Source: Variovorax sp. (GTDB lineage Bacteria; Pseudomonadota; Gammaproteobacteria; Burkholderiales; Burkholderiaceae_C). Taken from it: a DNA stretch of 64,000 nt. This document shows positions 29,461 to 41,041 of this stretch, piece after piece. The notes under the pieces were generated by a model. The model searched no databases, was not told the origin of the DNA, and saw only the letters and a list, made by a program, of their open reading frames with translations. Location of the stretch: NCBI GenBank assembly GCA_017744935.1, contig JAGIAI010000025.1, positions 1-64,000 on the forward strand, read 5' to 3'. The position numbers were made by a program, and so were the translations under genes. Position 1 is the stretch's first letter. Each line of letters opens with the position of its first letter.

Positions 29461-30679
29461 ATGGACGACATGGCCGACTACAGAATCGACACCCCCGCCG
29501 CCCGCGCGAAGCTCGCGCCGCGCCGCAAGCCCTATTTTCACAAGATCCTGACGAACCGCTTCGTCGGCTTCCGCTACATGACCCCCGGGCACCCCGGGGA
29601 CCCGGAGCGCCAAGCGCCAGGAAGGCCGCAAGGAAGTCGCCCTCCCGCTCGGGACACTTGACCACCTGGCCGAGAAGGATCGCTTCGCCTTCGCCCTCAA
29701 GGCGGCCCAGAAGTGGTTCGACGAGCAGGATACCCTCACCAAGGGCCAGACCATCATCCCGTCGAAGATGACGCTGCGCCAGGCGGTACAGGCCTACATC
29801 GTCGAGCAGGGCAAGAAGACCAAGAACGGCCTGGAGGCCGCGCGCTCGACGCGCTCGCGCTTCAACCTGCTCGTGGTGCCCTATGCCGACGAGAACGGCC
29901 GACGCTGGATTGATACCCCGATCGCCAGGATCACCACGGCCGAGTTCGCAGCCTGGCGCGAGTGGGTCGTGAAACTGCCAGTCACCCGAACGGGCGCGAT
30001 CGCCGGCAAGCCGCGCAAGGCCTCGACCGTGAACCGCGACGTGGCGAGCTTCCGGGCCGCGCTTAACCTCGCAGCGAAGGTTCACCGCTTGCACGACCAC
30101 TGGAGCGAGGTCCTCAAGCGCGACCTCGTCGGCGACGAGGGCCGGGGCTCGGAGGTCTATCTCAAGCCGGGGCAGCGTGCGGACCTGCTCGCCTCGGCAG
30201 CCGAGCTCGCACCCCACCTCCGGCCGCTCGCCAAGGCAATGCTCATCGTGCCGATCCGCCCGGGTGCCTTGGCCGCGCTCACGGTCGCCGACTATGACCG
30301 CCGCAAGCACAGCTTGTGGATTCACACCGACAAGGTCAACGCGGGCCGCTGGGTGACCCTGCCCGCCAGGAATAAGGACGGCACCCCGCACGAGTCGGTG
30401 GCGCTTCTCGCTGACCTGGTCCACCACAAGCTGCCCGCCGCGCCGCTGTTCGCGAACGACGGCGGCGGCCACTGGAATGCCAAGACCTGGAACGTCGCGA
30501 TCAAGGAAGTCGCCGCCGCGGCGAAGCTCCCGAAAGAGCTGACGATCTACTGGCTGCGCCACTCGCGCATCACCGACCTGATCACCGCGGGCATCGCGCC
30601 CATGACCATCGCCAAGATGGCTGGAAGTCGTCAAAACAGTTTCCACCCCACTCTTCTGGGCGGTAACCGTGGTGTGTAG
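29461..30679 (+). pseudogene. Tyrosine-type site-specific integrase, frameshifted and truncated
   Basis: The first ~40 residues ('YFHKILTNRFVGFRYM') read in frame 1; the rest ('KEVALPLGTLDHLAEKDRF' onward) reads in frame 2. The shift maps to a run of five C at 29582-29586. The catalytic domain has box-I 'IRPGALAALTV' (Ala where Glu is usual) and box-II 'LRHSRITDLITAG'. Homology ends at 'IAKMAGS' near 30620, where family members continue to the catalytic tyrosine ('EKHYGHL'-like). The last 15 residues are unrelated readthrough. Integrase activity is therefore not expected. Confidence 0.88.
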
Positions 30680-31476: not shown

Positions 31477-31711
31477 GTGGCATCGCTTTCCCCGAGGGAG
31501 GAAGGGCGCAGGGCGGTCGCGTGCCGCGCTCCGGGACTCTCAATATCTGCTGTCACATCTTTGCTCCTCGCAGGGCTGGCTTTGCCGTTCGCGGCTCAAG
31601 CGCAACTTGCATCGAGCCCGCGTCCTGCGATCGAGGAGCAGCGCCAGCAGGAGCGCGAACGGGCTCTGCGCGAGCAGCAGGAGCGCAGTGTCGACGCGCG
31701 CATCGAGCGAA
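31477..31711 (+). pseudogene. N-terminal remnant of CdiB/FhaC-type two-partner secretion transporter
   Basis: The frame opening at a GTG encodes a signal peptide ('LLLAGLALPFAAQAQ') and then the Gln/Glu/Arg-rich helix typical of TpsB N-termini ('EEQRQQERERALREQQERS'). The POTRA domains and beta-barrel are absent. The frame meets the cdiA-like frame near 31711. A deletion has removed most of cdiB and the 5' part of cdiA. Confidence 0.75.
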
Positions 31712-34427
31712 CACCGTCGACAGCACGCGTGCCGTCGCCTCGGAGATCGGCGGGCGCACCGTCACCATCGTCGCGGGCAACGACATCGGCGTGAAGGGCT
31801 CCAACATCATCGGCGACCAAGGCACCACGCTGGTCGCCGGCAGCGACATCAAGATCGAGTCGGTCACCGAAACCAGGAACACCAGCGGCAGCAACCAGAT
31901 CAGCCGCAGCGGTGTCTTCTCATCCGACGCGGCCGTCACCTTCGGCAAGCAGGAAGAGCAGAGCAGCATTCGCCGCAGCAGCACGAGCGCGGCCGGCAGC
32001 ACTGTCGGCAGCATCTCGGGCAACGTGAATATCGTTGCCGGCAACAGCTACAGCCAGGTTGGCAGCGACGTGATTGCGGCCACCGGCGATGTGAACATCC
32101 TCGCCAAGGACGTTCGCATCACCGAAGCGCGCGAGACCTCGCAGACGCACACCGAGCAGCGCTACCGGCAAAGCGGCATCAGCGTTGGCGTGAGTTCGCC
32201 GCTTCTCGATGCGGGCATGGCCGCGCGTGATCTGGCCGAGGCTTCGGGGAAGACCGAGAGCAGCCGGATGCAGGCGCTGGGGGTTGCTGCCGGAGCGGGC
32301 ACCGTCCACAACGGCAAGAACGCTCAGGAGGCCGCAAACGCCAGGGCTGCGGATGCTGGGTCTTCAAGCCCGATGGCCGGCAAGTTGACGGTGACCGCTG
32401 GTGGCAGTCGCAGCGAAAACACCAGCGATCAAAGCGCCAATACCGCGAAGGGTTCGAATGTTCACGCGGGCGGCGATGTCAACATCATGGCGCTGGGCGG
32501 CGGTGCGGATAGCAACATCCTCATCCAGGGCAGCAACGTCAGCGCGGGCAAGAACGTCAACCTCGCGGCCGACAACAAGATCGAACTGCTGGCGGCGGAA
32601 AACACGGTCAGCCACAGCAGCTCTAGCAGTTCCAGCGGCTGGAGTGCAGGCGTCGGGTTCGCGAGCGGAAGTCAGAACGGCGTGACCTTCGAGGTCGGCG
32701 CGAACACCGGCAAGGGCAGCAGCGATGGCAGCGGCACCTACTGGACCAACACGCACGTCACCGCCGGCAACCAGGTCAACATGATCAGTGGCGGGGACAC
32801 CACGCTCAAGGGCGCGGTGGTTTCGGCCGATCAGGTCAATGCGCTGGTCGGCGGCAACCTCACCATCCAGAGCTTGCAGGACACGAGCGTCAACGCGTCG
32901 AAGCAAAGTGGCGGTGGCTTCTCGGCCAGCGTGTGCACGCCGCCCTTCTGTTATGGCGATAGCAGCGCAAGTGCCAATGCATACAACACGCACGCGAACG
33001 GCAACTACGCGAGCGTGACGGAGCAAAGCGGCATCAAGGCGGGGGACGGCGGATTCAACGTTCACGTCGCGGGCGACACGAACCTCATTGGCGGCGTGAT
33101 CGAGAGCACGCAGGCGGCTGTCGATCAAGCCAAGAACAGCTTCAGCACCGCTAACCTCACGATCACTGACATCGCCAACGTCGATCAGCAGACGGGTGGC
33201 GGCTGGAGCGTGAGCGTCAGCACGGACGGCAGCAAGCCCAATGGATCGTCGGCGGGCTTCTCCAACCTGGATGAAGGCCAGGAAAGCGTGACGCGCTCGG
33301 GCATCTCCGGCATCGCGGGCGATGAGAGTGTGAGGACCGGCGACAACAGCAGCGTCGGGGCACTGGCGAATCGCTGGAACGAGCAGCAAGCGATGCAGGA
33401 CCTCGCGGCGCAGCAACAGATCACGGCGGCCTTCGGGTCAAGCGCGGCGACCGCTTGGGGCGACTACGCGAACAAGCAGGAAGCGGCTGCGCAAACGGAC
33501 GAAGACAAGGCATGTTGGAGCGCATCGGGCGCATGCCGTGCGGCGGGCCACATGGTCATCGGGGGCCTGTCTGGTGGTGTGGAGGGACTGCTCGGGGCCG
33601 GTGCAGCCACGCAACTGGCCGGAACCATCGATCAGGCCGTGACGAATGCGGGCCTGACCGGTGCCGCGCACGACGCGGTAGTGGCGGGACTGACGACGGC
33701 CGTGGGTGGTGCGCTCGGTGGAACGGCCGGTGCGGCTGGTGCTTACAACGAGGTGACGAACAACTACCTCTCAAGCAAACAAGTGCTCGAGATGATGGAC
33801 CAGCTGCGCGAGGCTGAAACCCAGGCCGAGCGCGACAAGATCCTGAAAGACTACGCAGACTTGAGCGGCCGGCAAAGCGCGGAGGCCAAAGGTTGCACGT
33901 CCCAGTGTGACGCCATCGCCGAAGATGCTTACGGGGGCAAGCAGGCGCTCGACTCGGTTAAGAACGAGCTGAAGAATTTGGCTGGGGATTCGTCTGTAGC
34001 GGAACAAATCCTAGGAACGCAAAAGAACGACAGCCTATTCTTCACTAGCCTCGGCAATGGCTGGATTGATTCGCATGGAAATCCTATCGATATTTCCAAA
34101 CAAATGCGCCAGACGGGTAAGGATATGGCGGACAGCATTTCGTCGGCAGCTGCGTACGCTTCAGCTGGATGTGCGACCGTTGTAGTGTGCGCTCCCGCTA
34201 TTCCAGCATTTACGGCGGCCGGCTTTTGGACCGGGATGGCGGGGTCTTTTATATTCGACGTCAATCCTGCTGGCGCATTTGTAGACACTGCCATTGATAA
34301 GTCGATCGATACGATCAGATATAAACTGAAAGTGCCCGCCTTGATTTCTACTTCAATCGCAGAGGGCATAAAGGGATCAAAGGAGATGAGTGACTGGAAG
34401 GACTCGCTATCAATTGACAAGAGGTAA
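31521..34427 (+). CDS. CdiA/FhaB-type adhesin-toxin, C-terminal half with toxin-like tail
   Basis: The open frame is 968 residues, but the first ~63 are out-of-frame cdiB sequence; recognisable CdiA begins near 'NTVDSTRAVASEIGG'. The middle is made of hemagglutinin repeats ('AGKNVNLAADNKIELLAAEN' and similar). A pretoxin region ends in 'YNEVTNNYLSS' at 33759-33770. The remaining ~218 residues are the variable C-terminus; base composition becomes AT-richer from about 33960, and a hydrophobic stretch ('CATVVVCAPAIPAFTAAGF') suggests membrane action. The TPS secretion domain and signal are missing, so export is doubtful. Confidence 0.8.
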   Translation: MPRSGTLNICCHIFAPRRAGFAVRGSSATCIEPASCDRGAAPAGARTGSARAAGAQCRRAHRANTVDSTRAVASEIGGRTVTIVAGNDIGVKGSNIIGDQGTTLVAGSDIKIESVTETRNTSGSNQISRSGVFSSDAAVTFGKQEEQSSIRRSSTSAAGSTVGSISGNVNIVAGNSYSQVGSDVIAATGDVNILAKDVRITEARETSQTHTEQRYRQSGISVGVSSPLLDAGMAARDLAEASGKTESSRMQALGVAAGAGTVHNGKNAQEAANARAADAGSSSPMAGKLTVTAGGSRSENTSDQSANTAKGSNVHAGGDVNIMALGGGADSNILIQGSNVSAGKNVNLAADNKIELLAAENTVSHSSSSSSSGWSAGVGFASGSQNGVTFEVGANTGKGSSDGSGTYWTNTHVTAGNQVNMISGGDTTLKGAVVSADQVNALVGGNLTIQSLQDTSVNASKQSGGGFSASVCTPPFCYGDSSASANAYNTHANGNYASVTEQSGIKAGDGGFNVHVAGDTNLIGGVIESTQAAVDQAKNSFSTANLTITDIANVDQQTGGGWSVSVSTDGSKPNGSSAGFSNLDEGQESVTRSGISGIAGDESVRTGDNSSVGALANRWNEQQAMQDLAAQQQITAAFGSSAATAWGDYANKQEAAAQTDEDKACWSASGACRAAGHMVIGGLSGGVEGLLGAGAATQLAGTIDQAVTNAGLTGAAHDAVVAGLTTAVGGALGGTAGAAGAYNEVTNNYLSSKQVLEMMDQLREAETQAERDKILKDYADLSGRQSAEAKGCTSQCDAIAEDAYGGKQALDSVKNELKNLAGDSSVAEQILGTQKNDSLFFTSLGNGWIDSHGNPIDISKQMRQTGKDMADSISSAAAYASAGCATVVVCAPAIPAFTAAGFWTGMAGSFIFDVNPAGAFVDTAIDKSIDTIRYKLKVPALISTSIAEGIKGSKEMSDWKDSLSIDKR

Positions 34428-34429
34428 TT

Positions 34430-34687
34430 TTGAAGAACCTATTTTATAAATACTCGATACTCGGAGTTCCTTTGGGGGCTTCGGGTTTTCTATTCAACTC
34501 GCCTTGGATTAGTTACCCACTATTTGTTGCCGGAGCCTTTATTTGTGGATTTGGATGGATGATTGGCATGGAAAAGGCGGGGCAAGAAGCATTAGAGAAG
34601 CAAAACAAAAAAAAGAAAGGGAAAAGAGAAGATGAAAAAAGACCTCTAACTCAAGGCCGAGGTCAAGTCGCAAGAACATCCCTTTGA
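34430..34687 (+). CDS. Small membrane protein, candidate CdiI-type immunity protein
   Basis: The frame starts at TTG three bases after the cdiA stop, with AAGAGG five bases upstream. The 85-residue product has two hydrophobic segments ('YSILGVPLGASGFLF', 'YPLFVAGAFICGFGWMIG') and a Lys-rich tail ('KQNKKKKGKRED'). Position, size, AT-rich composition and likely membrane location fit immunity to a membrane-acting toxin tail. No family recognised; the role is inferred from position. Confidence 0.6.
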   Translation: MKNLFYKYSILGVPLGASGFLFNSPWISYPLFVAGAFICGFGWMIGMEKAGQEALEKQNKKKKGKREDEKRPLTQGRGQVARTSL

Positions 34688-34740
34688 AGAATTCCATCAA
34701 CACTCCCCAGTCTTCTGCAAGACTCAGTTCACAAGCGTCA

Positions 34741-35235
34741 ATGATGAATACATATACCACCCGATCCATTCGTACGCCTACTCAGCCCGAGGTTGCATCA
34801 AACGAAGGGCCTTCGGGCTTCGGCGGATGGCTTCTTCTGCCGCTGATATCCATCACGCTTAGCCCCCTTCCGTTCGCCGCTGGCGCCATGGGTCTTTGGA
34901 TCGGCATGTCTGACAAATGGGGTTCCACGTGGGAACAAAACGCCCCACTTGCTGTTCTGTGTGTAGGCGAAATTTTGGCCAACCTCGCGCTCATGTTCTT
35001 CGCCCTGAATGTCGCTTCGCATTTCTGGCGAAAGACCAAGGAAACACCGTTGCTCTTCACCCTGCTCATGGGCATTAGCCTAGCTGTCCTTGCGCTCGAC
35101 TACATCCTTAGTCTCGCATTCTTCAACGGGGATCAAGTTCCCGGTCGCGGTCTAGCCCGTCAGGCAATTGCATGCGCCATCTGGATTCCCTATTTCCGTG
35201 TCTCCAAGCGGGTCCGGAACACCTTCGTTCGATAA
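34741..35235 (+). CDS. DUF2569 membrane protein
   Basis: The DUF2569 pattern is visible: 'FGGWLLLPLISITLSPL' for the first helix, two further helices ('ILANLALMFFALNVA', 'LLFTLLMGISLAVLALDYIL') and the ending 'IPYFRVSKRVRNTFV'. The ATG at 34741 gives 164 residues; the track extends to a TTG at 34684 that overlaps the previous stop. DUF2569 proteins are of unknown function and often sit near polymorphic toxins, so a second immunity role is possible. Confidence 0.72.
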   Translation: MMNTYTTRSIRTPTQPEVASNEGPSGFGGWLLLPLISITLSPLPFAAGAMGLWIGMSDKWGSTWEQNAPLAVLCVGEILANLALMFFALNVASHFWRKTKETPLLFTLLMGISLAVLALDYILSLAFFNGDQVPGRGLARQAIACAIWIPYFRVSKRVRNTFVR

Positions 35236-35304: not shown

Positions 35305-36048
35305 ATGCGCCCTGGAAAGTCCAACTCGCCAGCGATGTACGGCATCAAGCGTAGCTCCGACTCCGAAGCCTGGGCCGTGCGATTGAGCCGCAAGGGGAAG
35401 ACGCTCTACAAACAGTTCTGCTTCAGCCTCTACGGTGGTGAACAAGCAGCACTCGTGCGTGCACAAGTCTGGCGCGACGAGATAGTCAGGGCTCATCCGC
35501 TGATGCCTCGGAGTCAGATGGCCGCCATCGTCCGGCGCAACAACACGAGCGGTATAGCGGGCGTCTCCTGCAGATTGGGGCCGGATGGCGAACCTCGGTG
35601 CTGGACTGCCAGAACTCTGATCGCAGCCAACACGGAGCTGCGTGCCTCATTCAGTGTTACTCGCTATGGCGCGCAGGCCAAACAGTTGGCGATTGCCGAG
35701 CGAGAGAAGCAACTGAAGCAATTGATAGGGCTGACTCACGTGCATAGTGCGGAGGCAATTGTTCGAGTCTCGTCGCCAAGAGAGTTGCCGCCCGATCTTC
35801 CCGTCCCCGTCACAAAGCCCCTGGTTGCCCGGCGAGACAGCAGAAGCGGCATTGCCGGTGTGTACCACCAAACTAAGCGGGAGAGTGACCCAGGACGATG
35901 GTGCGCGCGTACCAACATAGGGGGCGGAAAAATCCTTGTGAAGTCCTTCTACGTCAAGCAGCATGGCGAAGAAAAGGCCAAAGAGTTGGCGATCGCCGAG
36001 CGCAAGCGGCAGCTTGAGCAGGTTCGCGGCGTCTCCGCCCGGCCCTGA
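35305..36048 (+). CDS. Three-repeat AP2-like DNA-binding protein
   Basis: This 247-residue basic protein is built of three copies of an AP2/ERF-like unit. Unit 1 is about residues 12-62 ('KQFCFSLYGGEQAAL'), unit 2 about 79-141 ('SGIAGVSCRLG' ... 'ASFSVTRYGAQAKQLAIA'), unit 3 about 180-240 ('SGIAGVYHQTK' ... 'KSFYVKQHGEEKAKELAIA'). The GI-GV, W-AR and F-V-YG-A landmarks are those of AP2 domains from phage and homing endonucleases. No nuclease motif is visible. It probably binds DNA; the partner is unknown. Confidence 0.72.
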   Translation: MRPGKSNSPAMYGIKRSSDSEAWAVRLSRKGKTLYKQFCFSLYGGEQAALVRAQVWRDEIVRAHPLMPRSQMAAIVRRNNTSGIAGVSCRLGPDGEPRCWTARTLIAANTELRASFSVTRYGAQAKQLAIAEREKQLKQLIGLTHVHSAEAIVRVSSPRELPPDLPVPVTKPLVARRDSRSGIAGVYHQTKRESDPGRWCARTNIGGGKILVKSFYVKQHGEEKAKELAIAERKRQLEQVRGVSARP

Positions 36049-36054
36049 ATTGCC

Positions 36055-36201
36055 ATGCTCGACACTATAAAAGCGTCCCTGCGCCTCATCGCAACGATCC
36101 TGGCCGCCGCGCTTCTGACTGGCTGCGGCGTCCTCGGCTGCGTCGGAGCTGGAAGCAACAGCGGGTATTCCGCGGGGTGTGGGACCAACGTGCGGTTCTG
36201 A
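36055..36201 (+). CDS. Small lipoprotein (48 aa)
   Basis: This ORF is too short for the track. It encodes a basic N-terminus, a hydrophobic helix and a clear lipobox ('AALLTGC', Cys24), then a short Gly/Ser-rich tail with two more Cys. It starts six bases after the AP2-like gene. It could be a phage or plasmid entry-exclusion or lysis lipoprotein; nothing specific is recognised. Confidence 0.6.
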   Translation: MLDTIKASLRLIATILAAALLTGCGVLGCVGAGSNSGYSAGCGTNVRF

Positions 36202-36229: not shown

Positions 36230-36592
36230 TCATTCCTTGCTGGCGGCGCCAGTGCGCGCCGCGAACATCCACCCCGCCACGGCCTCGACGAACCGCGCCC
36301 CGGAGAAGCTCGCGACCACGACGAAGGCCAAGCCCGCCCAAACATCGAACGCCCCCGATTCGCTCAGGAGGAACGCGAGCGTTCCGGCCAGCCAGCCGCT
36401 ACCCATGTGCGCGGCGCAAAGGAGCAGCCTGCGCGTGAACCCACCCGGCAAGTCGGCGCCATCGACCCACAGGCAGCGCTCGATCCGCACCAGCAGCGCG
36501 ACCACCGCCGACGCCGTCGAGAGCCCGGCCGACACGGTCATCAGCGGCAGCGACAGCACGAAGGGCGTGCGCATCTCGTTCGGGTCGATCAC
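36230..36592 (-). CDS. Putative phage holin-like membrane protein
   Basis: GTG at 36592 overlaps the stop of the chaperone ORF (GTGA), giving 120 residues; an ATG at 36574 is the alternative. Hydrophobic segments at 'LMTVSAGLSTASAVVALLV', 'AAHMGSGWLAGTLAFLL' and 'WAGLAFVVVASFSGARF' fit a three-helix holin-like protein. Its place directly after the tail-fibre/chaperone genes is where lysis genes often lie. The holin call is from topology and context. Confidence 0.55.
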   Translation of the reverse strand: MIDPNEMRTPFVLSLPLMTVSAGLSTASAVVALLVRIERCLWVDGADLPGGFTRRLLLCAAHMGSGWLAGTLAFLLSESGAFDVWAGLAFVVVASFSGARFVEAVAGWMFAARTGAASKE

Positions 36593-36963
36593 CGCGAGCC
36601 GCCTTCCAGGATCGCCATGCGCTCTTCCAGCGCCTCGACCACGCGAGCAAGCTGCTGGATGGCATGCAGTGCATCCACGAGCATGGCGAGCGTGTCCACG
36701 GTCTTGTAACGCCCCGCGTCGCTCACCCACTCCGCATCGATCGTCTCGATCTCCTGGGCGATCACGCCGATCGTGTGCAGGTGCCCGTCGTCCACCTTGA
36801 TCGTCGCCGGGTGGTCCTCCGGATCGCCCTCCTGCGACTGCCACGCGAGCTCCGGCCGGAAGCGGAACTGCCGGAACCGAAGGCGCATGATCTTGGCGAG
36901 CGAATCATCCGTGCTGTCCGCGATCTCCATCTTCAGGCGCTCATCCGATGCGTTCGTCGGCAC
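36589..36963 (-). CDS. Peptidase S74-type intramolecular chaperone domain
   Basis: This 124-residue segment has the chaperone signature beginning 'SDERLKMEIADSTDDSL', followed by 'FRFRPELAWQ', 'IGVIAQEIETIDAEWV' and a C-terminal coiled coil ('VVEALEERMAILEGG'). Such domains trimerise tail fibres and then cleave themselves off. Here it is in a different frame from the fibre that should precede it; the join is at about 36960. It could be translated separately from the GTG at 36963, but a frameshift is more likely. Confidence 0.78.
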   Translation of the reverse strand: MPTNASDERLKMEIADSTDDSLAKIMRLRFRQFRFRPELAWQSQEGDPEDHPATIKVDDGHLHTIGVIAQEIETIDAEWVSDAGRYKTVDTLAMLVDALHAIQQLARVVEALEERMAILEGGSR

Positions 36964-38227
36964 CAGATATCACCATAGCCCGCCAGGCCGCACAGCAGTT
37001 GCAGCACGCCGTTGTTGCGGATGTTGCGCGTCGCGGTGTCTCCGTTGTTGAGCCAGTACTCGCCCTGCCTGCCCATGAAGCGGTCGGCATTGTCGGCGTT
37101 GCTTGCCCGGCCCGCGCTGTTCGAGTAATTCGCGCTGTTGGCGTAGCTCACATTGAGGTTCCCCGGCTGCACAAGGAACTGGAATTGCCCGTCCCCGGCC
37201 GTGGCCCACAGGTACGGCGGGTTGTAGTTCAGGTTGTTGTAGGTCCAGCCACCGATGCCATTGACCATGTAGGCATTGCTCGCGGAGGCCGCATAGTCCG
37301 CGCTGGCGCTGCTGTCAGCGCGCCCCGAGGTGGCCGAGCGCGTCGCGTTGCCGGCGTTCGTCGCCACGGCCGCGCGCCCGCTCACATCGATAGGCCAAGC
37401 ATCGCCGAAGGCATCGCCCTCCACCGACACCAGCAGCCGCATCAGCGTGGCGCTCCAGCCGATGCTGACCGGCTCCAATCCTTGCCCAGGACCCACACCC
37501 TGGCGCACGGGCGTGAAGCCCAGCAGCGCATCGACGCTGCGCAGTGCGCAGGCCTCACCCGTGGCGTCGAGCGCGATGGCATGGTTCGCGAGAGCGGCAC
37601 CATCCCCCGGCCCCCCCGGCACCGGAAGCCCGAGTTGCCTGAGCGTCGTGGGCCACCCGCTGCCCGTGATGACCCAGTCCGCGAAGGTCCCGCTGCCCTG
37701 CGCCATCCCTTCGCCCACGACGAGGTCCATCGCGCCCGTCGCCGCGTCATAGCGGCCCACCACCGCGTTCATGCCCACACCGGCCGGATCGCTCGCGAGC
37801 GCGATGTGCACGAACTGGCCCGGCGCCCACAGCCGCCCGGGGTCCGTGATGAGCGTGCGCGTGCCTTCGCCGACCGTGAGCGAGGTGGTGCTCGTCCCAG
37901 GTGCTGCCGGCGCTGCAGCAGCAGCCCGCGCCGCTTCCTCGGCCGCCAGGCGAGACACCTCCGACGCCTGCGCCGACGCGCTCGCATTGGATGCACTGCC
38001 GACCGCCGCCAGCGCATCGGCATGCGTCTCGTCCCCGCGCTCGTTCATGTAGCCGCCCAGCGCGTTCGTCCGTCGATCGTCGCCGGCAGCGCCCCCAGCG
38101 TCGCATCCGCGCGCACCGCGAAGTTCTGCGGGTCGTTGCGTTGCGGCACGGGCGTGGGAATGGGCGGCACCACCGGAGGCGGCACCAGCGCGGCATTTTT
38201 GGGCGTGAAGGCGGGCTTCGCTTTCAT
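36933..38227 (-). pseudogene. Phage tail fibre protein, broken by two frameshifts
   Basis: The native start is ATG 38227 ('MKAKPAFTPKNAALV') with GAGG upstream. The first ~50 residues include 'FAVRADATLGALPATIDG', then the frame shifts at about 38066-38075. Sequence resumes as 'NALGGYMNERGDETHADAL' and continues through an Ala/Ser/Asn-rich shaft ('NSANYSNSAGRASNADNAD') to 'GYGDIW', where it shifts again into the S74 chaperone. Pieces together resemble tail fibres of lambdoid and Mu-like prophages. Confidence 0.75.
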
Positions 38228-38237
38228 GGGGATTGCC

Positions 38238-39119
38238 TCAGGTGAGGCCCTCGATCTCAAGCGTGCAGAAGGAGTGCGTGTAGTGCGCGATGTCCACGCT
38301 GAAGCTCTTGTAGAAGCCGTAGACGATCAGCGCCCCGAAGCGTTCGTCATTGCCGTTCCAGATCAGGGGCGTCGCGCGGTACTTCGCCAGCAGCCGACAG
38401 ACCTCGTCCACCAGGATGTTGTCCACCAGCACGTTCGCGCTCATGCGCTTGGAGAACGCACGCTCCACCACGAAGTAGTCGCCCCAGGCATCCACTTCCT
38501 TGCGCGAGTAGTCGTTGATCGACAGGTGCGGCGAGATCTGCGTCACGCCGAAGATGCGCGACTGCCCGACGATGATCTCGCCCACCGCCACGTCGTTCAC
38601 CGGCTTGGAGATCGTCACCGTCAACTCGCCTTCGAGATACGGGGGCACATTGGCGAAGCTCACGTCCGTGCGCGCGCGGAACTGCGCGAAGAAGTACTCG
38701 AACCAGTCGGTGATGACCTCGCTCGTGCGCATGTCGCGTTCATCGCGCCACACCGTCTCGCCAGCATGGTCCAACGCCACCTCCACGAGCTCGGCATCCA
38801 CGTTCAGGATCGCCACGTCGCTGATGATCCCCGCGCGCAGTTTCACGACGATCGGCGTCGGTCCCTTCGACTGGCTGCCCACCCGCTGGTCGAACATGGC
38901 CCAGGTGTTGGTCGCGCCGATGTCGAGCCAGTACTCGGGGTTCGCGCGCGGGACCACGCCCGTGCCGTCCTGCACCGCCTCCCAGATGCGCCGCTCGTGG
39001 ATGACCTGGTCTCCGACGATGAAGGCCGCCACCATGTCCCACGCGGGCAGCGCCTCGTCCACCACGTTGCTGTAGCTCAGCGTGGCCGGCGTGATGGGCG
39101 TGGGGATGATGACCTTCAT
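38238..39119 (-). CDS. Phage tail-associated protein
   Basis: This 293-residue protein sits between the tape-measure fragment (ATGA overlap) and the tail fibre (10 bases). It begins 'MKVIIPTPITPATLSYSNV' and contains 'AAFIVGDQVIHERRIWEAVQ', resembling the short aromatic-rich modules of phage tail proteins. It is probably a baseplate or tail-tip component; exact role not recognised. Confidence 0.6.
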   Translation of the reverse strand: MKVIIPTPITPATLSYSNVVDEALPAWDMVAAFIVGDQVIHERRIWEAVQDGTGVVPRANPEYWLDIGATNTWAMFDQRVGSQSKGPTPIVVKLRAGIISDVAILNVDAELVEVALDHAGETVWRDERDMRTSEVITDWFEYFFAQFRARTDVSFANVPPYLEGELTVTISKPVNDVAVGEIIVGQSRIFGVTQISPHLSINDYSRKEVDAWGDYFVVERAFSKRMSANVLVDNILVDEVCRLLAKYRATPLIWNGNDERFGALIVYGFYKSFSVDIAHYTHSFCTLEIEGLT

Positions 39120-41041
39120 GCCGAAGTCCTCACGCGTTGCATGCGCGGGAGCCGCGGTTCGGCCCGTTCGGCCTCGTCGACATCCCGCACGCGCAGCGCA
39201 TCGCCGCCCTCGCTCAGGCGATCCAGGAGGTGATAGGTGCGTTGCCCCATGCTGGCGATGGCCGCATCGCCCGTGCGGCCCTCCGTGCTGCCGCGGGCCA
39301 GTTCTTCGAGCAAGGCATCCAGCAATTGGACGATGCGGTCCTCGTGCGAGCGATCCGGAGCCGTGTGGGAAGCGCTCGGCCGGTCCCAGATCCGGGCGTC
39401 ATTGGCGGCATGCCCCCGAATCGCGGCGCCCAACTGCTGCTGGTTCCAGATGCGCGACGCCCCGGTCGCCTCGACCTCCCAGCCGCGCTCGCCGACCAGA
39501 CGCAGCCCGCCCGCGTGCAGGCCACCCGACGCGAAGCCCGGCAATACACCGCCCGCGAGGATCGCCCGCGCGAAGTCCACCAGGTTCGCGTTGATCGCCT
39601 GCAGCTCGATGATCTGCCGTGCGCTCGCATCCGCGATCACCTGCTGGATGCTGGCCTGTTCCTCCGCCTGCTCCAGCACCGCCGCGAGCTTGGCCTCGGT
39701 GAGCGCCCGGTCGCGGAGGTACTCCACGCGCGTGCCGCTCGTGCGCTCGGAGGCTTGCAGGAAGGCGGTCGCCGAGCCGCCCACGCGCTTGGCCGCCTCG
39801 ATGTCGCCGGTGTCCCCGGAGAGAGCCTGCACCACGTTCCGGTCGAGCTGCGCGAGGCCCCGGGCGTATCGCATGGCCGGGTCGATCAGGTTCTGCGTGT
39901 CCGCGCGCAGGCGCTCGATGTCGCCGCGCAGGTTGTTGGCGACCGAGCGCCAGGCATCGGCCGCGGACTGCGCCGTGCGGATGATGTCCACCTGGGCCTG
40001 CGCGGAGGCCTCGGCCGCGTCGGCCACCTCGGCGAACTGGCCCGCGAGGCTCATGAGCTGTCCGAAGAGCTGCGCGCCCGCGTCGGTGGAGGTGTCGAGA
40101 CTCTCGACCAGCGCGCGGAAGGCGTCCTTGCCGGCCGGCACGGCCACGCCGATGCGCTCGAACTCCTCGGCGAGGCGAGATGCTTTCGCGGCGTTCTGTT
40201 CCTCCTCGGAGAAGAACGCATCGAAGCAATCCTGCAGGCCGCTTTGCAACTGCTCGATGCCCCCGGCCCCACGCACCATCATGGCCGAGAGATCCAGAGC
40301 TTGCGCACCCACCGAGCGCATCGCGCCGCGCACGTCGGTGAGCACCTTGTACAGGTCGATCAGTTCGTCGTAGCTGCCGGTGAAGATGTCGATGATCTCG
40401 CCCACGCCCGTGAGCGCACCCGAGGCGGTGTATTCCAGCGCGGTGACCGACTGCCGCACGATCTCGGTGGCCAGGTCCCCGCTCTTGTTGAGGACCTGCG
40501 TGTAGTCGATCGCGGCGACCCCGAACTTCTCCAAGGCGTAGTTGGCTTTCTCGACATCGGCCGAGACGCGCACGAGCGTCTCGAACAGACCCTCGCCGAC
40601 CCTCTGGAATTCGGCGATCGTGGGCACGGCCGCGCGCGCGATCTGGTCGCCGAGGCTTGAGAAGAGCGCCTCCAATTCGGCCTGCGCCTCCTGGCCCGAC
40701 TTGCCCATGAGCGACAACTGGCCGCCGCCGACGATGCCGAACATGCGCATCATGGACGTGTCGCCCAGGTCCGGCAGGATCGACAGCATGCGCGACATCA
40801 TCCCGGGGTCGTCGAGCTTGAGGTTGTGCGCGGCCATCCCCACGGCATCCACCATGCTCACCACCATCGACGTCATGGAGTCGGTCAGCTCCGAGTCGAG
40901 CGCCGTGTACATGGCGCTCGCGCCCTTTTTCTTCGCCCAGGTGACGACATGGCCCACGGCCTGCACACCCTTGGTGATCATGTCGCCGACGGTCTGCGGC
41001 GCGAAGGAGATGCCGCTCGCGATGGTCTCGCCGCCGCTCAC
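39116..41041 (-). CDS. Phage tail tape-measure protein, C-terminal fragment
   Basis: This 641-residue, largely helical protein has Ala- and coiled-coil-rich stretches, a hydrophobic glycine segment ('LTGVGEIIDIF') and a C-terminal 'GFASGGLHAGGLRLVGERGW' typical of tape-measure C-termini. Complete tape measures are usually longer and have an N-terminal region lacking here. The frame opens at 41041, exactly where the restriction-enzyme remnant begins on the other strand, indicating truncation at a recombination junction. Confidence 0.72.
   Translation of the reverse strand: MSGGETIASGISFAPQTVGDMITKGVQAVGHVVTWAKKKGASAMYTALDSELTDSMTSMVVSMVDAVGMAAHNLKLDDPGMMSRMLSILPDLGDTSMMRMFGIVGGGQLSLMGKSGQEAQAELEALFSSLGDQIARAAVPTIAEFQRVGEGLFETLVRVSADVEKANYALEKFGVAAIDYTQVLNKSGDLATEIVRQSVTALEYTASGALTGVGEIIDIFTGSYDELIDLYKVLTDVRGAMRSVGAQALDLSAMMVRGAGGIEQLQSGLQDCFDAFFSEEEQNAAKASRLAEEFERIGVAVPAGKDAFRALVESLDTSTDAGAQLFGQLMSLAGQFAEVADAAEASAQAQVDIIRTAQSAADAWRSVANNLRGDIERLRADTQNLIDPAMRYARGLAQLDRNVVQALSGDTGDIEAAKRVGGSATAFLQASERTSGTRVEYLRDRALTEAKLAAVLEQAEEQASIQQVIADASARQIIELQAINANLVDFARAILAGGVLPGFASGGLHAGGLRLVGERGWEVEATGASRIWNQQQLGAAIRGHAANDARIWDRPSASHTAPDRSHEDRIVQLLDALLEELARGSTEGRTGDAAIASMGQRTYHLLDRLSEGGDALRVRDVDEAERAEPRLPRMQRVRTSA

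Follow-up and report, generated by a model that had tools for sequence, protein, structure and literature searches.

A three-unit AP2-like protein of Variovorax whose accessory relatives recur at the 3' ends of interbacterial toxin loci

Results

The AP2 gene and its product

The window analysed here is a stretch of 64,000 nucleotides from Variovorax sp. (contig JAGIAI010000025.1, in an assembly of 6.0 Mb, 118 contigs and 88% completeness). On its plus strand lie two adjacent open reading frames (ORFs) that had been picked out in an initial annotation of the sequence and were both confirmed in position, one for a protein of three AP2-like units and one for a 48-residue lipoprotein. The first is the main subject of this study: its accessory relatives recur at the 3' end of loci for contact-dependent growth inhibition (CDI) and for type VI secretion system (T6SS) toxins, where the protein may act as a DNA-binding regulator. 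The gene and its units are as follows.

35305..36048, plus strand: triple AP2-unit protein of 247 amino acids, ATG 35305 to TGA 36048 (Pfam AP2, homologue alignment, AlphaFold2 model)
35335..35502, plus strand: AP2-like unit 1, the most diverged, residues 11-66 (family alignment, fold)
35533..35742, plus strand: AP2-like unit 2, residues 77-146 (family alignment, fold)
35839..36036, plus strand: AP2-like unit 3, above the Pfam AP2 cut-off, residues 179-244 (Pfam, alignment, fold)

Only the third unit (residues 197-235) exceeds the curated cut-off of Pfam AP2 (PF00847), and that narrowly (33.7 against 33.3 bits). In pairwise comparison within the protein, identical residues at 30 of 71 positions mark units 2 and 3 as clearly related, and the similarity of unit 1 to either is below detection, so that unit 1 is assigned to AP2 by the family profile and by its fold. 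An alignment of about 40 homologues covers all three units, every full-length member having the same build, and when homologues were scanned member by member 41 of 44 matched AP2 at E <= 0.01 (best E 1.9e-17). No nuclease family was matched among these 44 members, and as neither an HNH, a GIY-YIG nor a LAGLIDADG domain was present the protein was rejected as a homing endonuclease. An AlphaFold2 model built with the homologue alignment (mean pLDDT 89) consists of three strand-strand-strand-helix units (residues 14-63, 87-140 and 186-244), i.e. the PF00847 topology of a three-stranded antiparallel sheet followed by a helix occurs three times. The proposal of three AP2-like units without a nuclease domain is thus upheld, and the structure prediction that had been suggested as a check returned the AP2 fold for each unit.

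The best solved matches of the model in Foldseek are AP2 proteins, namely AP2 subunits of the Toxoplasma mitoribosome and a tandem AP2 of Plasmodium in complex with DNA (6sy0), and many of its viral fold matches are homing endonucleases. Used as a single sequence, the window protein found nothing among solved structures and no relative in a scan of genome contigs, for which no stretch of the alignment was sufficiently conserved, and its PHROG matches are weak (for example PHROG 99, AP2-HNH homing endonucleases). The protein is strongly basic (computed pI 10.5, net charge +23), as is the family (pI >= 9.9 across 113 members); its own pI and the match to the DNA-bound 6sy0 point indirectly to sequence-specific binding, and we consider it very probable that the protein binds DNA. 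A scan for promoters and terminators gave no clear excess over shuffled sequence.

Distribution and neighbourhood of AP2 homologues

Homologues of the AP2 gene were found in 52 of 102 Variovorax genomes, in 15 of 301 genomes sampled from the family and in 8 of 300 sampled from the order, each count including the window genome. Those on plasmids are all from Rhizobiaceae. Phage records contained no homologue, for which reason the gene was rejected as phage cargo despite the tail genes that adjoin it. A CDI (cdiA or cdiB) or VgrG/Rhs gene was present within 7 kb at 33 of 48 accessory AP2 loci of Variovorax compared with 1 of 51 loci of the core clade, which serves as an internal control from the same search of the same genomes (Fisher p 2e-13, a value inflated by shared ancestry); the neighbour count is probably a lower bound because tblastn with a single query overlooks some neighbours. 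At the sensitivity applied, 64 genomes contain between 1 and 9 VgrG genes each, so that chance neighbours would be expected at a few per cent of loci, as is seen in the core clade. At 31 of the 33 toxin-linked accessory loci the AP2 gene lies downstream of the toxin genes on the same strand. In many Variovorax genomes two core AP2-repeat paralogues stand in tandem, away from toxin loci (L086, L087, L163 and others).

Many accessory copies stand behind CDI genes in the surroundings of the loci that were fetched, the gene order in Variovorax being cdiA, a small gene, often a lipoprotein gene, cdiB and AP2. Among the close cdiB genes taken from the genus-wide list (full-length, >= 80% identity) 18 of 54 are followed within 3.5 kb by an AP2 gene of the same orientation, a recurrent place of the kind looked for in a component of the locus. 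All 18 were confirmed by a unit-profile search, and the number of such pairs expected by chance is well below one (our own arithmetic, from 54 loci of 10 kb each and 1-2 AP2 genes per genome of 6-7 Mb). The called AP2 ORF starts 10-34 nucleotides past the cdiB stop codon in five loci, and in several loci 0.4-3 kb of other ORFs separate the two genes. Near cdiB genes at middle distance an AP2 gene was found once in 33 cases, on the opposite strand, and near distant ones in none of 22; cdiB loci outside Variovorax (Pseudacidovorax, Raoultella, Enterobacter and others, in a scan of named records) had no AP2 gene nearby.

The association extends to T6SS genes. In a clade of seven AP2 genes without CDI all seven stand behind VgrG or Rhs toxin genes, as do further copies outside this clade, and VgrG, Rhs or cdiB is nearby at 8 of 20 Burkholderiales loci outside Variovorax. 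On Rhizobiaceae plasmids VgrG, DUF2169 or PAAR-type cargo lies beside the AP2 gene in 11 of the 12 records inspected, some of which are closely related to each other (the exception is H5). Among these plasmid genes (L258-L269) several are divergent from vgrG with a gap of 58-340 nucleotides, and in several T6SS-linked loci (L192, 7850-8439; L180; L156; L219) a pentapeptide-repeat ORF ends shortly upstream of the AP2 start, the two forming a conserved pair. We have little doubt about the membership of the window protein in the AP2 family or about the association of that family with toxin loci. The earlier statement that the gene belongs to neither the cdi nor the phage genes around it has therefore to be revised, since its accessory relatives recurrently close CDI loci or T6SS VgrG/Rhs loci at their 3' end.

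Selection on AP2 genes and their independence of toxin type

The ratio of nonsynonymous to synonymous substitution (dN/dS) was 0.05-0.28 in 12 pairs of close AP2 genes drawn from CDI-linked, T6SS-linked and core members, which indicates maintenance of the protein. In two pairs of loci (L098/L105 and L145/L147) AP2 genes that are nearly identical accompany unrelated CdiA C-termini, and in the pair L098/L099 the CdiA C-terminus is 100% identical and only L098 has the AP2 gene. AP2 is thus independent of the CdiA C-terminus and is no immunity gene tied to one toxin allele. The place of the gene within a toxin locus and next to putative immunity genes might suggest an immunity factor or antitoxin for a CDI or T6SS toxin, but the immunity position after cdiA is already filled by other genes, AP2 genes at a synonymous distance (dS) of 0.13 occur with unrelated C-termini, and AP2 may be present or absent beside one and the same C-terminus. 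As AP2 does not track toxin type in this comparison of C-termini we rejected it as an immunity gene, a role that we consider very improbable. Judged from its conservation, the AP2 gene is a maintained accessory of toxin loci.

The window locus

Upstream of the AP2 gene lie the remains of CDI genes, and downstream of it the lipoprotein ORF.

31593..31701, plus strand: 5' fragment of cdiB, signal peptide and EQRQQERERALREQ (blastn about 75-89% to the starts of relatives' cdiB)
31713..34427, plus strand: CdiA remnant with haemagglutinin repeats and C-terminal region, without the N-terminal secretion part (Fil_haemagg_2, E 8.9e-55; comparison with relatives)
34430..34687, plus strand: 85-amino-acid membrane-protein ORF of 42% GC, right after cdiA (ORF, GC)
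34684..35235, plus strand: DUF2569 membrane protein of 183 amino acids, between the CDI genes and AP2 (Pfam DUF2569, E 5.7e-26)
36055..36201, plus strand: cysteine-rich lipoprotein of 48 amino acids (LLTGCGVLGC...GC...RF), ATG 36055 to TGA 36201

The order in the window is therefore cdiB fragment, truncated CdiA, 85-residue ORF, DUF2569, AP2 and lipoprotein, with the cdiB fragment joined to cdiA in another frame, and the AP2 copy evidently follows a degenerate CDI locus. The junction of cdiB and cdiA could reflect real decay or an assembly fault. At L090 the same order of cdiA, small gene and AP2 occurs with no cdiB between. The 85-residue ORF has the position and GC content of a putative CDI immunity gene. 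The C-terminal region of CdiA (past the motif VTNNYLS) holds a long hydrophobic stretch, and together with the 85-residue ORF (33561-34687) it looks like a candidate pair of membrane-acting toxin and immunity protein; beyond the pre-toxin part this pair had no relatives in the fetched loci, nor did the DUF2569 protein have a homologue there. A tyrosine integrase fragment (29768-30679) lies near the CDI remnant. On the other side, phage tail genes (an S74-chaperone tail fibre and a tape-measure-like ORF) occupy 36589-41041 on the minus strand, directly followed by other genes, and look like the tail remnant of a prophage.

The downstream lipoprotein

The lipoprotein ORF starts 6 nucleotides past the AP2 stop codon on the same strand. 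The clear lipobox that had been read in it is indeed present (LLTGC), though the match to LPAM_1 is below the cut-off (13.3 against 20). Among 101 other Variovorax genomes there is one clear homologue, in G357 (L056; E 1e-6, 48% identity), which keeps the same cysteines and C-terminal pattern, the other genus-wide matches being short matches to the lipobox region only. It lies directly behind a gene that we take, from the motif of that fold, to be AlkB-like, in a genome without an AP2 match, and no comparable small lipobox ORF was found directly downstream of the other full-length AP2 loci. The short gap and common strand would suit the conserved two-gene unit that the initial annotation had proposed, with the caveat that the proposal would fall if the small ORF were not conserved. 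As a partner of AP2 it is not: its homologue is elsewhere and the other AP2 genes lack such an ORF. The conserved pair was for these reasons rejected, being so improbable that it can be set aside, and on present comparisons the lipoprotein is probably an unrelated short gene that came to lie downstream by chance. The ORF does not qualify as LptM (NCBIfam NF047847, 14.9 bits against a cut-off of 27.7). BcpO of Burkholderia-type CDI is a small lipoprotein of 73-74 amino acids encoded just upstream of cdiB (PMC3415462); the window ORF does not correspond to it, having 48 amino acids, a place downstream of AP2 and no cdiB after it. In the Variovorax CDI loci L098-L151 several unrelated families of small lipoproteins flank cdiB on both sides, some of them BcpO-like in position.

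Discussion

The predicted fold, the family, the recurrent downstream place on the same strand, the purifying selection on relatives and the independence of toxin type are established at the level of sequence comparison. The reading that we favour, and to which we would give an even chance, is that the window encodes a stand-alone protein of three AP2 units, that the accessory members of its family stand last in interbacterial toxin loci, and that it is a DNA-binding regulator there. The protein would bind DNA through three sheets placed side by side, which together would recognize a composite site. With accessory genes carried at the 3' end of CDI (cdiA-cdiI-cdiB) and T6SS (vgrG-toxin-immunity) loci, it could act as a local regulator of its own toxin operon, which it would autoregulate or silence from a gene at the operon's tail. 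Regulation of the toxin locus is the more tentative part of this proposal, and we put it forward as possible. Several observations weigh against the proposal. No AP2 gene is present at 36 of the 54 close cdiB loci, which suggests that CDI can do without it. The tree contains at least seven gains or losses of CDI linkage, which is therefore not one stable inheritance, and shared ancestry lies behind part of the statistical signal. The core clade, the biggest part of the family, is almost without toxin neighbours, and a search for repeated motifs upstream of 63 core AP2 genes gave no convincing conserved repeat. The number of units is not constant, being from 1 to 5 per gene. In the window itself the CDI locus is degenerate, which makes a present role of the AP2 gene there doubtful.

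Two other explanations account for the same position in different ways. The AP2 protein might serve the mobility of cassettes, as a nuclease-less descendant of AP2-HNH homing enzymes that promotes recombination and exchange of toxin cassettes at the end of the locus. Many of the viral fold matches are homing endonucleases, in which AP2 units are typical, the decoupling from toxin type is what would be expected if cassettes were exchanged around AP2, linkage has changed many times in the tree, and the GC content of the block is below that of the window (60% against 66%). The lack of a nuclease domain in the members scanned, the strong purifying selection on the units and the inheritance of core-clade genes at toxin-free sites speak against such a function, however, and we think it unlikely. 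Alternatively CDI and T6SS loci may have insertion hot spots at their 3' ends, where AP2 lands with other cargo and has no functional tie to its neighbours. This would explain why AP2 is found at only a third of close cdiB loci, with other genes at the same place elsewhere, and why 0.4-3 kb of other ORFs intervene in several cases. A mere passenger would not be expected in the same neighbourhood in two bacterial classes and in two delivery systems as unrelated as CDI and T6SS, nor so consistently downstream on one strand, nor to start in some loci within a few tens of nucleotides of the cdiB stop, and we regard this explanation as unlikely.

Returning to the favoured reading of a DNA-binding accessory, multi-AP2 proteins may, with a likelihood that we put slightly short of even, form an undescribed class common to CDI and T6SS that controls or diversifies the loci it terminates. 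If so, nuclease-free AP2 repeats would be a common DNA-binding partner for both systems, and it would become testable how only a few cells come to activate their toxin loci and how cassettes are exchanged. The AP2-repeat family would also offer a simple bacterial system for DNA recognition by tandem AP2 units.

Comparison with known systems

AP2 units are familiar as transcription-factor domains in plants and apicomplexans and from the homing enzymes of phages, where they read the DNA; HNH homing endonucleases of phages are otherwise their typical setting. Among open-licence papers we found none joining AP2 to CDI, T6SS/VgrG or polymorphic toxins. Tandem proteins of the ApiAP2 type such as SIP2 (6sy0) resemble the window protein, by profile and fold, in their tandem sheet-plus-helix units, but the window protein is bacterial, has no domain besides its three units, whose helices are long, and is encoded at a toxin locus. 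With the phage AP2-HNH homing endonucleases (PHROG 99) the family shares an AP2-like unit; it differs from them in having neither HNH nor another nuclease domain, in being a cellular gene under purifying selection and in its place at the end of toxin operons. With respect to the vgrG/Rhs effector cassettes of T6SS, AP2 relatives end runs of vgrG, toxin and immunity genes or, in several Rhizobiaceae records, diverge from vgrG; the papers searched do not mention AP2 proteins among the members of such cassettes. The Burkholderia-type CDI locus bcpAIOB consists of the exoprotein gene, the immunity gene, a small ORF and then the transporter gene (PMC3415462). The same order is found in Variovorax CDI loci, many of which have lipoprotein ORFs upstream of cdiB; the lipoprotein of the window differs in its downstream position and its length of 48 amino acids, and an AP2 gene after cdiB extends that order beyond the locus as described.
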